Shown here piece after piece: positions 22,300 to 32,483 of a stretch of DNA of 64,000 bases; position 1 is the stretch's first letter, and every line of letters begins with the position of its first letter. Under the pieces are notes generated by a model that ran no database searches, had not been told where the DNA came from, and was given only the letters and a program-made list of their open reading frames with translations. The position numbers and the translations under genes are program-made. This DNA is from Bifidobacterium breve. GTDB lineage: Bacteria > Actinomycetota > Thermoleophilia > Solirubrobacterales > Solirubrobacteraceae. Where the stretch lies: NCBI GenBank assembly GCA_945878865.1, contig CAMCUD010000013.1, positions 1-64,000 on the forward strand. Direction: 5' to 3'.

Positions 22300-22320
22300 C
22301 GCGTCCGACCGGACCCCATG

Positions 22321-22334
22321 CGAACATGTGTTCG
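22321..22334 (+). promoter_or_regulatory. LexA/SOS box at the start of the radical SAM gene
   Basis: CGAACATGTGTTCG matches CGAACRNRYGTTYC at 13 of 14 positions and sits inside a 20-base perfect palindrome (22318-22337). It ends one base before the ATG at 22336, so bound LexA would cover the promoter of a short-leader or leaderless transcript. Confidence 0.8.
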
Positions 22335-22335
22335 C

Positions 22336-23403
22336 ATGCGGTGGGAGCATCTAGAGATTGAGCGGCAGCAAGCCGCGACCCTGCCGGGGTACAGGGAACA
22401 GGCGACGGTGCGGCGATTCGACGCACCCGAGGCCCTCGACATGCGGTTCTACGAGGTCCGGGCCAAGACGGTCCTCAACCGGGTTCCCCCGAAATCGCAG
22501 ATGCCGTTCCGGTGGACGATCAACCCGTATCGGGGATGCAGTCATGCCTGCGTCTTCTGTTTCGCTCGCCCCACGCACACGTATCTCGGCTTCGACGCGG
22601 GCCGCGACTTCGAGCGCGAGATCGTCGTCAAGGTCAACGCGCCAGAGGCCGCGCGCGCCGAGCTCTCACGCCCGAGGTGGAGGCGCGAGCACGTCGCGAT
22701 GGGGACGAACACGGACCCGTATCAGTGGGTCGAGTCGAAGTACCGCTTGATGCCGGGGATCTGGGAAGCGCTGCGCGACAGCGACACCCCGTGTTCGATC
22801 CTCACGAAGTCGCCGCTGCTGCTCCGTGACGCGGACCTCATGGTCGAGATCGCCGACCGCGGCATCCCGGTGTACGCCGACCTCTCGATCCCGACGTGGG
22901 ACGAACGCGCCTGGCGCGCGACCGAGCCGCACACACCGAGCCCGAAGGCGCGGATGGAAGCCGTCGCCGAACTGAACCGGCGCGGCATCCCAACCGGGAT
23001 CCTTGTCGCGCCGCTCATGCCCGGCATCAACGACGCGCCGCACCAGCTTGCGCCGCTCCTCGAGGCCGCGGCTGAGGCCGGCGCCGTGCAGATCGGCGGC
23101 ATCGGGCTGCATCTCCGCGGCCAGGTGCGCGACGTCTTCATGGAGTGGCTGCGCAGTGCCCGGCCGGACCTCGTCGGTCTGTACGAAGAGCTGTACGAGG
23201 GCGGCGCCTATCTGCCGCAGCACGAGCGCCGGCGCCTCGCCCGACTCATCCGGGCCGAGGCGCGCGACCCGGCGCCGGGCAACGCGACGGGGGAGGGGAC
23301 GCAGCGCTTCGAGGCGCTCCGCGCGCAGCGGCGTGGCGCCGCGGAGCGGCCAGAGGAGGTGAAACGTACCCCGGCGCCTGCCGCGCAGGAGTCGCTGTTC
23401 TAG
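22336..23403 (+). CDS. Radical SAM protein, spore-photoproduct-lyase-like (Rv2578c type)
   Basis: A 355-residue COG1533-type radical SAM protein. The cluster motif is Cys68-x3-Cys72-x2-Cys75 in GCSHACVFCFARP, preceded by PFRWTINPYR, which is typical of the Rv2578c group. Further landmarks are MGTNTDPYQ, ILTKSPLLLRD and GILVAPLMPGIND. I use ATG 22336 rather than 22318 because the earlier ATG lies inside the SOS palindrome and the family usually starts MRW. The SOS box implies a damage-response role; the substrate is unknown. The 3' end shares CTAG with the convergent cupin gene. Confidence 0.88.
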   Translation: MRWEHLEIERQQAATLPGYREQATVRRFDAPEALDMRFYEVRAKTVLNRVPPKSQMPFRWTINPYRGCSHACVFCFARPTHTYLGFDAGRDFEREIVVKVNAPEAARAELSRPRWRREHVAMGTNTDPYQWVESKYRLMPGIWEALRDSDTPCSILTKSPLLLRDADLMVEIADRGIPVYADLSIPTWDERAWRATEPHTPSPKARMEAVAELNRRGIPTGILVAPLMPGINDAPHQLAPLLEAAAEAGAVQIGGIGLHLRGQVRDVFMEWLRSARPDLVGLYEELYEGGAYLPQHERRRLARLIRAEARDPAPGNATGEGTQRFEALRAQRRGAAERPEEVKRTPAPAAQESLF

Positions 23404-26729: not shown

Positions 26730-27632
26730 ATGCCCGGCGTCCTTGCCATCTTCGGGCCGACGGCTGTCGGCAAGACCGCGTTCGCGATCGCGGCGGCCGA
26801 GCGCCTGCACGCGGAGGGCGACGCGCCGGTCGCGATCGGCGCGGACGCGCTGCAGCTGTACGCCGGGCTGGAGATCCTCACCGCGATGCCCACCGCGCAG
26901 GAGCGGGCGCGGTTGGAGCACCGGCTCGTGGGCATCACGCCCGTAACCGACACGTTCAGCGTCGCCCGGTACGCGCGCATGGCGCACGAGGAGATCGATG
27001 CGCTGCTCGCGGCCGGGCGCGCGCCGATCGTCGTCGGCGGCACCGGGCTGTACCTCCGCGCCGCGCTCGCTGACCTCCAGCTGCGCCCGCCGCCCGAGCC
27101 GGGGGTGCGCGAGGCGCTCATGGCCGAGCTCGAGGACGTCGGCCCGGAAGCGCTGCACGCGCGCTTGGCCGAGGCCGCACCGTGGGCCGCCGCGCGGATC
27201 GACGTCCGGGACCGGTCGCGGATCGTCCGGTCGCTTGAGCTCCACGCCGCCGGCCAGCTCGAGCCGCCGCCCGCCGAGAACGAGTTGTGGACCGCCCACA
27301 CGCGTCATCCCACCCGGCTGGTCGGCCTCGTGATGGACCGCGACGCGCTGGTCGCCCGGATCGACGCCCGTGTCGACGCGATGGTCGAAGCCGGGGTCAT
27401 CGACGAGGTCCGCCGCGCCGATGCGGCCGGCGCCTCGGCCACCGCGCGCGCCGCGGTCGGCTTCGCCGAGTTCCTCGCCGGTGACGTCGAGGCCGCAAAG
27501 GTGCGCACGCGGCGGCTCGCGCGGCGCCAGCTGACCTGGATGCGCAAGCTCGCCGGGGTGGAGCTCGTCGACGTCACCGACCGCACGCCCGACGAGGTCG
27601 CAGACGCGCTGCAACTAGGCTCCGCCGCATGA
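26730..27632 (+). CDS. miaA: tRNA dimethylallyltransferase
   Basis: A 300-residue enzyme that prenylates A37 of tRNAs reading UNN codons, the step before MiaB. The P-loop is GPTAVGKT at 9-16. The usual ADS-x-Q-x-Y region reads ADALQLYAG, and VVGGTGLYLRA matches the family. The customary GTAKP reads LTAMP, a small divergence. The C-terminal tRNA-binding part (RRLARRQLTWMRK) is present. Its stop lies beyond the dapF start (4-base overlap), so miaA and dapF are coupled. Confidence 0.93.
   Translation: MPGVLAIFGPTAVGKTAFAIAAAERLHAEGDAPVAIGADALQLYAGLEILTAMPTAQERARLEHRLVGITPVTDTFSVARYARMAHEEIDALLAAGRAPIVVGGTGLYLRAALADLQLRPPPEPGVREALMAELEDVGPEALHARLAEAAPWAAARIDVRDRSRIVRSLELHAAGQLEPPPAENELWTAHTRHPTRLVGLVMDRDALVARIDARVDAMVEAGVIDEVRRADAAGASATARAAVGFAEFLAGDVEAAKVRTRRLARRQLTWMRKLAGVELVDVTDRTPDEVADALQLGSAA
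27616..27621 (+). promoter_or_regulatory. Candidate internal -10 (TAGGCT) before dapF
   Basis: TAGGCT lies inside the end of miaA, 7 bases before the dapF ATG. It fits the recurrent pattern, but coupling to miaA could serve dapF without it. Confidence 0.25.
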
Positions 27633-28486
27633 CGCTCGCGTTCGAGAAGTGGCAGGCCCTGGGCAACGACTACCTCATCGTCGAACGCGACCGCCTGCCG
27701 TTCCCGCTCACCGAAGAGCGCGTCCGGCGCCTGTGCGACCGCCATCTCGGCCTCGGCGGCGACGGGATCCTCGAACTGTCACCGCCCGACGCGCCGGGCT
27801 TCGTCGCGCGGCTGCGCATCTTCAATCCCGACGGCTCCGAGGCTGAGCTGTCGGGCAACGGCGCGCGCGAGGCGATCATGTACCTGCGCCGCCGTGGCTG
27901 GACCGACCAGCGCGAGTTCTCCATCCAGACCGTCGCCGGCGAGCTGCGCCCGACGATCCTCTCCGACACCACGTGCACGGTGGACATGGGCCGCGCCAAG
28001 CTCGAGTCCGACGACTACCCGGCCGGCGAGCGCGACGGCCGCGGCGAGCTGGAGACCGGCGAGCACGCCTGGTGGTTTCAGCACGTGTCGATCGGCAACC
28101 CGCAGTGCAGCATCGAGGTGCCCGACGCCGACGCGCTGCTCGCGCTTGACCTCCACGCGATCGGACCGGGCATCGAGCACCACCACCTCTTCCCGAACCG
28201 CACGAACGTCTCGTGGTGGTGCCGCCTGGGCGACGACCGGATCCGCGCGCGGATCTTCGAGCGCGGGGTCGGCGAGACGATGTCGTCGGGAACCGGCGCG
28301 ACCGGCGCGGCGGTGTCGTTCGTCCTGCGCGGAGGGGACAGCCCGGTGACGGTGGAGCTCGACGGCGGCGAGCTGACCGTGGAGGTCGAAGAGGACCTCC
28401 ACGTCGACCTGACCGGCTGGGCCGTGCCGGTCTACGCCGGTGAGGTCAGCGGTGACCTGCTCGCCGACCTCACCGCGATGGACTGA
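27629..28486 (+). CDS. dapF: Diaminopimelate epimerase homologue with Ser in place of both catalytic Cys
   Basis: A 285-residue DapF-fold protein: LGNDYLIVE at 11-19, GLGGDGIL, FNPDGSEAE, SIGNPQC, and the paired active-site loops. DapF interconverts LL- and meso-diaminopimelate with two cysteines, normally in xCGNGxR and xCGTG. Here both are serine: Ser75 (codon TCG, ELSGNGAR) and Ser220 (TCG, ETMSSGTGATG). The rest of the two-lobed fold looks intact. Either the protein works with serines, or it has a different role. It is coupled to miaA and faces the dapE-dapC-dapD operon. Confidence 0.88.
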   Translation: MTLAFEKWQALGNDYLIVERDRLPFPLTEERVRRLCDRHLGLGGDGILELSPPDAPGFVARLRIFNPDGSEAELSGNGAREAIMYLRRRGWTDQREFSIQTVAGELRPTILSDTTCTVDMGRAKLESDDYPAGERDGRGELETGEHAWWFQHVSIGNPQCSIEVPDADALLALDLHAIGPGIEHHHLFPNRTNVSWWCRLGDDRIRARIFERGVGETMSSGTGATGAAVSFVLRGGDSPVTVELDGGELTVEVEEDLHVDLTGWAVPVYAGEVSGDLLADLTAMD

Positions 28487-28489
28487 CGC

Positions 28490-29313
<824 letters not shown>

Positions 29314-29317
<4 letters not shown>

Positions 29318-30486
29318 GGCCCCAACTTCGCAGATCGCGCGTCGAGGCGGCGGGCGGCCTCCTCGCACGCCTCGACCGTCGGCACGAGGGCCGCGCGGAC
29401 GTACCCGGCACCCGCGGCGCCGAGGTACGACCCGGGCGCGACGACCAGGTCGAGCTCGTCGAGCAGGGCGGTCGCGAACGCCTCGTCATCGCCACCGGGC
29501 ACGGCGAGCCACAGGAAGAACGACGCGTCGCCGCCGGCCAACCGCAGCCCCGCGCGTTCGAGCGCGGGAAGGAGGACGTCGCGCTTGCGCCGGTACCGCT
29601 CGCGGACCTGCTCGACGTGCGCCTCGTCGCGCCACGCCAATGCGGCGGCGCGCTGGACGAACAGCTGCGGTGCGACCCCGACCGACGGCCGGTAGCGCTT
29701 CAGCGCGGCGATGAGGTCCGGGTCTCCGGCGACGAAGCCCGACCGGTAGCCGGGCATCGACGACCGCTTCGAGAGCGTGTTGATCGCGAGGACGTTCGTG
29801 CGGTCGGCCAGCTGCAGCGCCGAGACGGGCGCGTCCCCGTCGAACCACAGCTCGCTGTACGCCTCGTCGCTGGCAAGCACCGCGCCCGCGGCCCGGCAGC
29901 GCGCCGCGGCGTCCTCGAGGAACGCGAGTGGGACCGTGGCCCCGGTCGGGTTGTTCGGGTAGTTCAGCCAGAGGATCGCCAGGCGGTCCCAGTCGATCGC
30001 GTCGAGGTCGGGCAGCCAGTCGCGCTCGGCGGTGAGCTCAAGCTCGACGACGTCGGCGCCGGCGAACGCGCCTCCGCGGGCGGGCACCGGATAGCCCGGA
30101 GTCGTCGCGGCGATGAGGTTCCGGCCCCCGTGACGGTCGACGATGACGTTGGCGAGGTGGAAGACCGCCTCCTTGGAGCCCAGCGTCGGGATGACTTCGG
30201 AGGCGGGATCGAGGTCCGCGCCGAACCGCCGCTTCGCCCAGGCGGCGATCGCCTCGCGCAGTTCAGGCAGGCCCTCGGCGGTCGGGTAGAGCGACACGCG
30301 TTCGGCCTGCACGGCCCGGACGAGCTCCTGCACGATGAAGGACGGCGTCTCCTCCCGCGGTTCCCCGATCCCGAAGTCGATGAGGTGCGCGCCGCGCTGC
30401 TGCGCCGCGGTCTTCGCCTGGGTCAGCCGGACGAACGGGTAGGTCCCGAGCGCGTCGAGCACCGGGTTGCGGGAGGTGGGCGACAT
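29314..30486 (-). CDS. dapC: Succinyldiaminopimelate transaminase
   Basis: A 390-residue class I PLP aminotransferase that makes N-succinyl-LL-diaminopimelate from the succinylated keto acid. PLP lysine is Lys240 in NTLSKRSSMPGYRSG; NYPNNPTG at 175-182 and SDEAYSELW (Asp207, Tyr210) also match the fold. Its position between dapE and dapD fixes the assignment; on sequence alone it is one of several related aminotransferases. It overlaps dapD by 4 bases and follows dapE by 12. Confidence 0.92.
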
Positions 30487-30498
30487 CGTGCGCGGAGG

Positions 30499-31581
30499 CT
30501 ATCCCTCGGTGATGAAGGCCCGCAGCACGTCGTAGGAGCGGCGCAGCGCGGCCTCGGTGACGAGTTCGTCCCGGCGGTGGGCCTGCTGCGGGTCGCCGGG
30601 ACCGAAGTTCACCGCGGGCAACCCGAACGCGGCGAATTCCGCGATCGGCGTCCATGCCTGCTTGGCCTGCACGGCGAGGTCGCCGTGCTCCCGCAAGGAC
30701 CGGACGAGCGGGTGCGCGAGGACGACCGGCGCCGACGGGGCGTTGGAGACGATCTCCAGCGTCCCGTGTGGCTCACACCACGCTCGCAGCCGAGTCTCGG
30801 CGTCCGCCGCGGCGATCCCCGGGGGGTAGCGGTAGTTGACGTGCGCGGTCGCGACGTCGGGGACGACGTTGTCGGCGATGCCGCCGGCGATCCGGGTGAC
30901 CGACACGGCCTCGGTGAAGACGAGGCCGTCGTGCTCGTGGTCGGTGTAGGGCACGTCGGCGAGCTCGGCGATCCCGCGGGCGGCGCGATGGATCGCGTTG
31001 TCCGCGGTCCAGGGCCGGCCGGAATGCCCGCTGCGCCCGTGGAAGCTCCACGTGGCGTTGAGGTTCCCCAGGCACCCGGCGTGCAGCGCGTTGTCCGTTG
31101 GCTCCATCATGAGGACGAGGTCCGCGCCGAGAAGGGCGGGCTCGCGGCCCAGCAGTGGGGTGAGCGCGCTCTCGGCCACGGGGAGCTCCTCGCGCCCGAA
31201 GAAGACGTAGCCGACGTCGATCGCGCACCTGTCCGGCGTCAGGTCGCCCGCCAGCTCGATCATCACGGCGAGCGCCGCCTTCATGTCACTGGCGCCGAGA
31301 CCGTGCACCGCGCCGTCCTGCAGTCGCCCTGGCCGGTTGCCCTGCGTCGGCACGGTGTCGAGGTGACCGGCTAGGAGCACCAGCGGACGATCTTCCCGGC
31401 GGCCGCCGGCGAGCGCGCCGGCAAGGACGCACGTGTCGCCCGCGTCCCGGACGGGCACGTCAAGCCCGGTGAGCACCCCAAGGACGTGCGCGGCGAGCGC
31501 CTGCTCGTCACGCGACTCGGACGGGACGTCGACCAGCTCCAGCGTTCTGGCGGCCAGGCGCCCGGTCAGGTCGGCGTGCAT
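30499..31581 (-). CDS. dapE: Succinyl-diaminopimelate desuccinylase
   Basis: A 360-residue M20 metallopeptidase-family enzyme that removes the succinyl group to give LL-diaminopimelate. Zinc-site residues are His73 and Asp75 in LAGHLDTVP, Asp99 in GASDMKAA, and the Glu131-Glu132 pair in GREELP; a dimerisation domain lies near 175-285. ATG 31581 is the first start compatible with the domain. It leads the dapE-dapC-dapD operon and diverges from the DUF429 gene across only 24 bases. Confidence 0.93.
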   Translation of the reverse strand: MHADLTGRLAARTLELVDVPSESRDEQALAAHVLGVLTGLDVPVRDAGDTCVLAGALAGGRREDRPLVLLAGHLDTVPTQGNRPGRLQDGAVHGLGASDMKAALAVMIELAGDLTPDRCAIDVGYVFFGREELPVAESALTPLLGREPALLGADLVLMMEPTDNALHAGCLGNLNATWSFHGRSGHSGRPWTADNAIHRAARGIAELADVPYTDHEHDGLVFTEAVSVTRIAGGIADNVVPDVATAHVNYRYPPGIAAADAETRLRAWCEPHGTLEIVSNAPSAPVVLAHPLVRSLREHGDLAVQAKQAWTPIAEFAAFGLPAVNFGPGDPQQAHRRDELVTEAALRRSYDVLRAFITEG

Positions 31582-31588
31582 GCCGGGG

Positions 31589-31594
31589 AGCCTA
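31589..31594 (-). promoter_or_regulatory. Candidate -10 (TAGGCT) for the dapE operon
   Basis: On the minus strand TAGGCT ends 7 bases before the dapE ATG. Its first two bases overlap the opposing -10 of the DUF429 gene. Confidence 0.45.
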
Positions 31595-31598
31595 ACCT
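31593..31598 (+). promoter_or_regulatory. Candidate -10 (TAACCT) for the DUF429 gene
   Basis: TAACCT ends 7 bases before the DUF429 ATG and overlaps the dapE -10 by two bases, giving a back-to-back pair in a 24-base gap. Confidence 0.45.
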
Positions 31599-31605
31599 CG
31601 CGGCC

Positions 31606-32397
31606 ATGCGGTACTGCGGCATCGACATCTCTGCCAAGCCCGGCAACCAGCAGCTGTGCACGCTCGTCGAGCGGCGCGGGGAGAACGGGCCCGAGCTCGT
31701 CGCGTCCTTCTACGCGCCGGGGACCGTCGAGGCGGTTGCGCGGACCGTCCTCGGCTTCGGTCGCGAGGCTGTGGTCGCGGTTGACGCCCCCTCCGGCCAC
31801 CGGCTGGACCTCCTCGCACCGGGGCAGCCGCTGCGTGAGACGCTCGATCTCCCCGAGGGCCGGTTCGAGCGCCACCGGGTGTGCGATGCGCTGCTGTTCC
31901 GCCGCCGCCTGCCCCTGTATCCCGTGCCGAACGCCGCGCAGGCGCTCTCGACCTGGGAGGCGTGGATCGGCGTCGGCTTCGAGCTCTTCGCGGCGCTGGA
32001 CGGCCTCGGCGTCTACCGCCCGCCCGCCGCGGACCGGCTGCAGGCGCCGGTCGGGACGGGTGCCCTCGCGCACGGGCGGCTCTGCGAGACCTACCCCGAC
32101 GCCGTCTTCTGCTCGCTGCTCGGCCACCGGCCCCGCCCGAAGCGCACGCCGTGGGGGCTGCAGGAGCGCATCGCCGCATTGCGGGTCCGCGGGATCGTCG
32201 ACGAGGACGGCGGGTTGTGGCACCGCACGCTCGACGAGCTCGACGCGTGCGCCGCCGCGTACGCCGCGTGGTCGCTGGCCTCCGGCGAAGGCTCGTGGGT
32301 GGGCGATCCGCAGGAGGGCGTCATCGTCCTGCCGGTCGCCGAACTGCTCGACCGGTACGACCCGCTGCCCCCGCCGCAGCGCCTCGTGCTGGCCTAG
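31606..32397 (+). CDS. DUF429 protein (predicted RNase H-fold nuclease)
   Basis: A 263-residue DUF429-family protein. It opens with the acidic strand GIDISAKPGNQQLCT and has AVDAPSGHRLD and ETYPDAVF further on, consistent with an RNase H-like fold with conserved acidic residues. The family is predicted, not shown, to be nucleolytic. It is divergent from the dapE operon and stands before the RGG-box protein gene; its role is unknown. Confidence 0.8.
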   Translation: MRYCGIDISAKPGNQQLCTLVERRGENGPELVASFYAPGTVEAVARTVLGFGREAVVAVDAPSGHRLDLLAPGQPLRETLDLPEGRFERHRVCDALLFRRRLPLYPVPNAAQALSTWEAWIGVGFELFAALDGLGVYRPPAADRLQAPVGTGALAHGRLCETYPDAVFCSLLGHRPRPKRTPWGLQERIAALRVRGIVDEDGGLWHRTLDELDACAAAYAAWSLASGEGSWVGDPQEGVIVLPVAELLDRYDPLPPPQRLVLA

Positions 32398-32483
32398 AAG
32401 CCGCGTCGCGCCGAAGGTGCCACAATGGTCTCCACGCACGCCCGGCCGCAGGGTCAACGCTTCTCCGGGGTGCGCCTTTCGTC

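Follow-up and report, generated by a model that had tools for sequence, protein, structure and literature searches.

The dapF gene of the window (the whole stretch of 64,000 nucleotides analysed here, from a soil bacterium) encodes a homologue of diaminopimelate (DAP) epimerase with serine in place of both catalytic cysteines, and this protein is probably the true DAP epimerase of its genome, with Ser75 and Ser220 as its acid/base pair. DapF is a standard example of how a thiol/thiolate pair can abstract, with no cofactor, an alpha proton that is not activated (pKa about 29). That whole lineages should do without both textbook cysteines will surprise a specialist. No report of a natural Ser/Ser DapF (serine at the first and second catalytic position) was found in the open-access literature that we searched. 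Beyond what the earlier note on this DNA had seen, Ser/Ser is a recurrent state in several lineages and phyla. To judge from the sequences compared, it is a real active-site variant of DapF and very probably a working epimerase, for which a serine mechanism can be proposed. The features of the region are listed in Table 1.

Table 1. Genes and codons of interest around dapF, with positions counted from the first letter of the window.
Feature	Position	Strand	Evidence
miaA, directly upstream of dapF with a 4-base overlap	26730..27632	+	TIGR00174, 177 bits
dapF, diaminopimelate epimerase, with Ser75/Ser220 for both catalytic cysteines	27629..28486	+	Translation, TIGR00652, AlphaFold2 model
Ser75 codon (TCG), first catalytic position (Cys73 of H. 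influenzae DapF)	27851..27853	+	Sequence, alignment
Gln159 codon (CAG), His in other DapF groups (His159 of H. influenzae)	28103..28105	+	Alignment
Ser220 codon (TCG), second catalytic position (Cys217 of H. influenzae DapF)	28286..28288	+	Sequence, alignment
dapD, tetrahydrodipicolinate N-succinyltransferase	28490..29368	-	NF008808, 346.7 bits (cut-off 204)
dapC, succinyldiaminopimelate transaminase	29314..30486	-	Best model TIGR03537, 367.9 bits, under the cut-off of 453.6
dapE, succinyl-diaminopimelate desuccinylase	30511..31563	-	TIGR01900, 331.5 bits (cut-off 304.2)

The dapF product has 285 residues and matches the TIGR00652 equivalog model over its full length (193.1 bits, cut-off 114.65). 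It also matches the Pfam family PF01678 (DAP_epimerase; 150.1 versus a cut-off of 34.7), which was the only family found in the Pfam scan, the proline racemase family profile giving no match. The two active-site loops of the translation read ...EAELS75GNGAR... and ...GETMSS220GTG.... When solved DapF structures are aligned with the protein, both serines fall on the catalytic cysteines, as the earlier note had claimed, and neither of the two cysteines typical of DapF is present. The same note had considered the fold to be intact, and this is borne out by the AlphaFold2 model (pLDDT 97.2, pTM 0.93). The model has the two-domain DapF architecture, with helices predicted at residues 76-88 and 221-233 and the two serines placed at their N-terminal ends, as are the cysteines in DapF. 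Its closest PDB folds are DapF structures, such as Anabaena 9mro (TM-score 0.88), and TM-scores of up to 0.88-0.90 are reached with the characterised enzymes (TIGR00652; H. influenzae, Anabaena 9mro and C. glutamicum 5m47). The likeness extends to the substrate contacts, the catalytic positions at helix ends, the pathway context and a neighbourhood shared with Cys/Cys orthologues of the class. The difference lies in the Ser/Ser pair that stands for the acid/base cysteines and, throughout the order Solirubrobacterales, also in the change of His159 to Gln.

That the other contact residues are intact, another point of the earlier note, holds for most of them. According to the alignment, the DAP contacts Asn13, Asn66, Asn77, Asn157, Asn193, Glu211, Arg212 and Thr222 (for their roles see PMC12039745 and PMC5296763) are invariant in the order, and they are kept in the other Ser/Ser groups, where position 222 is Thr or Ser. 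This includes the Arg, Asn and Glu residues for the distal end of DAP, its second amino-acid moiety. The statement fails for the conserved His that follows GNP in DapF (GNPH, His159 of H. influenzae), which one data set gives among the catalytic residues (PMC3581254). This residue is Gln159 in 109 of 109 distinct sequences of the order, after Asn157, and His in every other group aligned, the other Ser/Ser groups included. H159Q, F210 and E81 are specific to the order. Position 195 is Glu in all Cys/Cys proteins, Ser or Gln in most Ser/Ser groups and Glu in one Ser/Ser group. Among the alignment columns, we found no compensating residue common to all Ser/Ser groups, and no new basic residue conserved across them that could explain the activation of serine.

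The organism names attached to related loci assign the window to Solirubrobacterales, in the class Thermoleophilia. Ser/Ser is present in 132 of the 132 full-length DapF proteins of Solirubrobacterales that reach both positions. As these orthologues come from many independent assemblies, the agreement cannot be put down to chance, and a sequencing error or pseudogene in the window was ruled out on this ground. The earlier note had raised the question whether Ser/Ser is lineage-wide. This is true for the order, but not for the class Thermoleophilia. Two further families of the class are entirely Ser/Ser (f7, 48/48; f11, 4/4), whereas families f5, f6, f8, f10 and f12 show Cys/Cys in all readable cases, and family f9 comprises 12 Cys/Cys and 5 Ser/Cys proteins. 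A Cys/Ser protein, with only the second position changed, was not seen in the survey, which suggests that the first catalytic position may change first. Within the order, Ser75 and Ser220 are 100% invariant in the 109 distinct sequences, whose pairwise identity goes down to 51%; 55 of the 285 positions are invariant in this set, including the two serines and the residues that contact the substrate. TCN and AGY serine codons are more than one silent step apart. Most of the codons concerned are TCN, and AGY is used in 3 of the 109 sequences at Ser75 and in 21 of the 109 at Ser220, so that serine has persisted while its codons switched. The invariance of serine together with the use of both codon sets argues for selection keeping serine rather than for drift. 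The possibility of a catalytic cysteine relocated elsewhere in the protein was also considered. No Ser/Ser-specific cysteine is common to the groups, and the frames of three Ser/Ser orthologues (L262, L263 and L277, one of them from a single-contig genome, G009) are free of any cysteine, which excludes a relocated thiol in these three. It can be mentioned that DapF is shortened in a subgroup of f7 (L262-L277), where about 217-232 residues align, still Ser/Ser and in some cases cysteine-free, with scores mostly just over the family cut-off. A Solirubrobacterales bin (G357, contig 165) contains a very divergent second DapF-like gene, L236, with the loops WCGNGAR and LGCATG. This is the one remaining gene of the order with cysteines. 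It is too divergent to be taken as the lineage's second DapF, and represents either contamination or a distinct family.

Outside Thermoleophilia, Ser/Ser is the sole DapF in six genomes reached via related loci, belonging to Methylomirabilota, Aquificota, ANGP1 and, in one case, Bacillota. Two cyanobacterial genomes have a Ser/Ser protein alongside one or two Cys/Cys DapF, and its function there may therefore be different. A separate Ser/Ser clade with the loops EKSGNG and TLASGSS includes L104, L106-L110, L101 and L112 from Aquificota, Methylomirabilota, ANGP1, Bacillota and Cyanobacteria. In Aquificota, exactly one DapF is present in 81 of 81 genomes; of the 50 that were read, 44 are Cys/Cys and 6 Ser/Ser. 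With one DapF of either type per genome, the two forms replace each other. When 396 Actinomycetota genomes were scanned for a single codon spelling of the Ser loop, two more Ser/Ser families (f46, f49) and four Ser/Cys families (f26, f55, f71, f76) emerged, with a single DapF in 17 of the 18 genomes checked. A protein search of plasmid records brought up only DapF with less than 60% identity.

In a tree of 100 rows the distribution of Ser/Ser needs 4 label changes, and 5 are needed in a broader tree set of 85 rows. Family f7 groups with the Cys/Cys family f5, and the order with f10 (Cys/Cys) and f11. These topologies favour several origins of Ser/Ser. Nevertheless, approximately unbiased (AU) tests do not reject a single clade, either for all Ser/Ser proteins (p 0.18) or for those of Thermoleophilia (p 0.30), and a repeated origin is thus favoured, not proven. 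Cys/Cys to Ser/Cys to Ser/Ser may be an evolutionary path that was followed repeatedly.

How could two serines do the work of two cysteines? We propose that substrate closure would place the alpha carbon between the N-termini of the two helices described above, as in ordinary DapF. Ser75 would act as base towards the L centre, with the helix end and backbone NH groups stabilising it, and a proton would be given from the opposite face by Ser220. In the back reaction these roles would be reversed. The serine hydroxyls would thus serve as acid and base. A hydroxyl that is not activated is much less acidic than a thiol. The thiolates of known DapF owe their stability to helix ends and backbone NH groups, and no basic residue lies close to them (PMC12039745). 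L,L-aziDAP labels the first cysteine of the enzyme (PMC12039745), and the first residue is therefore likely the base for the L centre. For proline racemase, the C-H pKa of the bound substrate has been estimated at about 16 (PMC6389717). By analogy, an alkoxide would not be out of place at such a value. The behaviour of engineered relatives, which are nearly inactive, counts against a Ser/Ser epimerase: a Cys-to-Ser change in PddB leaves less than 0.1% of activity (PMC8225329), activity of HisR C67S/C209S is greatly reduced (PMC11602996), and Cys-to-Ala replacement in C. glutamicum DapF (C83A/C221A) abolishes it (PMC5296763). The C73S and C217S mutants of H. influenzae DapF (PDB 2q9h and 2q9j) carry the same substitutions singly and in the same fold. 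However, these are engineered, single and impaired, whereas the Ser/Ser pair described here is natural, double and stable across an order.

To our knowledge, no Ser/Cys enzyme outside the related proline racemase superfamily is known to be active. In that superfamily, a 4-hydroxyproline 2-epimerase with a Ser93/Cys236 pair is active, and the trans-to-cis (L to D) direction was attributed to Ser93 (PMC4113996). This active epimerase resembles the window protein in being cofactor-independent, in its superfamily and in the serine at the first catalytic position; it differs in retaining one Cys and in belonging to another family with another substrate. The Ser/Thr trans-3-hydroxyproline dehydratase also has Ser at the first position, but it is a dehydratase and not an epimerase (PMC4113996). 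The precedent of a serine assigned as catalytic base speaks against a different explanation, in which DAP is epimerised and the proton is carried by an ordered water, Glu211, the amine or carboxylate of the substrate, or a modified serine. We regard this as unlikely. Its appeal is that a serine hydroxyl is an unlikely base, that the loss of His159 indicates remodelled surroundings in the order, and that one structure of H. influenzae DapF has a water close to the alpha-amine and to Glu208 (PMC12039745). Yet it is Ser, never Ala or Gly, that is strictly kept at both positions through codon switches, and the retention of His159 in the other Ser/Ser groups leaves no common substitute visible.

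The function of the window protein can also be approached through gene order. The gene miaA is beside dapF in 48 of the 48 loci of the order with long flanks, and hflX then follows in 44 of the 48. This arrangement, miaB-miaA-dapF...hflX, is also found around Cys/Cys genes (f10, f12 and several named loci of Thermoleophilia), the Ser/Cys genes of f9 and the Ser/Ser genes of f7, f11 and f49. For the Cys/Cys family f5, miaB, miaA and the downstream aminotransferase gene are present, and hflX was not found within the stretch available. Genes of all three types thus share one layout and are positional orthologues, and this common gene order rules out a paralogous or horizontally gained dapF in Thermoleophilia.

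LL-DAP, formed by DapE as the product of the succinylase branch, is the substrate of DapF, and LysA acts on meso-DAP. The branch leading to LL-DAP is complete and encoded next to dapF. The opposite-strand dapE-dapC-dapD genes noticed earlier were substantiated by family profiles, the dapE match corresponding to residues 299-649 of a longer open frame (30499-32457). The window genome has one LysA, found in 40 of 41 genomes of the order, and a MurE with the DNPR motif. For all Solirubrobacterales, the diamino acid that is diagnostic of the wall is meso-DAP (PMC3035278), which was also reported for Solirubrobacter deserti (PMC10722151), this wall chemistry being that of relatives of the window organism. 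Given the LL-DAP branch, LysA and meso-DAP walls, these cells must possess an LL-DAP epimerase. A search of the window genome for a second dapF with Cys/Cys, as the earlier note had advised, returned none, PF01678 being represented by one gene in all. A DapF match is found in 147 of 151 genomes of the order, and nearly all of these have exactly one. The meso-DAP dehydrogenase Ddh is absent from the window genome, and a bypass of the DapF step by this enzyme was ruled out for this reason. Ddh matches over the cut-off occur in 2 of 81 genomes of the order and in none of the 27 Ser/Ser or Ser/Cys genomes outside it. Two Solirubrobacterales (L187 and L188, from G254 and G365) combine a clear Ddh (>440 bits) with a Ser/Ser DapF. 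From the presence and absence of these genes, the window DapF is the only candidate LL-DAP epimerase that we see, and it would convert LL-DAP to meso-DAP for lysine and probably also for peptidoglycan. The place in the dap pathway that the earlier note had thought likely is supported both by the dapE-dapC-dapD neighbourhood and by the positional orthology with Cys/Cys dapF.

That note had left three options, namely a modified mechanism, another job, or LL-DAP that stays unconverted. The first is favoured by the lineage-wide Ser/Ser state, the single dapF, the missing Ddh, the presence of LysA and MurE and the literature on meso-DAP, and the other two are disfavoured. If the protein had another job (another substrate, binding or regulation), a different and unrecognised enzyme would have to make meso-DAP. 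We judge this improbable: the Thermoleophilia Ser/Ser gene is the positional orthologue of Cys/Cys dapF and the sole DapF, every DAP-contact residue is kept, including the distal set, and, Ddh being absent, a hidden second epimerase would be required in several separate lineages. What speaks for it is the near inactivity of the engineered Cys-to-Ser enzymes, the two cyanobacteria with both types, whose Ser/Ser copy may differ, and the existence of DapF relatives with other substrates, O-ureidoserine racemase (7vdy) being among the fold matches. HisR, PddB and O-ureidoserine racemase share the DapF fold and a two-base logic. All three act on other amino acids, and HisR and PddB keep both cysteines; the window protein, unlike them, retains the DAP-contact set and the dap neighbourhood. 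A decaying dapF, with LL-DAP left unconverted and built into the wall, finds its sole support in the loss of the canonical residues and is hardly credible in view of the 55 invariant positions, the presence of LysA and the meso-DAP reported for the order.

With the window protein as a Ser/Ser DAP epimerase, we lean towards the view that several lineages run the essential DapF step with this pair, some of them with cysteine-free proteins, and thus perform cofactor-independent amino-acid epimerisation without thiols. If this is true, the accepted need for a low thiol pKa would be wrong or met otherwise, and it would be a mistake to call cysteine-less DapF proteins inactive. DapF is also an antibacterial target, and known aziridine inhibitors alkylate its catalytic thiols. 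Such thiol-reactive compounds would in that case miss whole lineages. Thermoleophilia offer matched Cys/Cys, Ser/Cys and Ser/Ser orthologues at one locus, which makes a direct test possible. As to a benefit, peroxide joins the two cysteines of C. glutamicum DapF in a disulphide, and activity is lost (PMC5296763). Resistance of Ser/Ser proteins to oxidation is possible by analogy, and speculative.

The surroundings of the window dapF have some features of their own. A radical SAM gene of the Rv2578c family adjoins miaB at 22318-23403, its best family score being 389.4, below the cut-off of 430. The opposite-strand dapE-dapC-dapD block (28490-31563) is rare in the order: among the loci with long flanks, all three genes are present only in L111, where they are 86-92% identical to those of the window. 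Most loci of the order have instead, immediately downstream of dapF and in the same orientation, an aminotransferase gene of about 34% identity. The window block resembles that of f7 (62-71% identity for dapD), and either an exchange between lineages or the retention of an old layout is possible.
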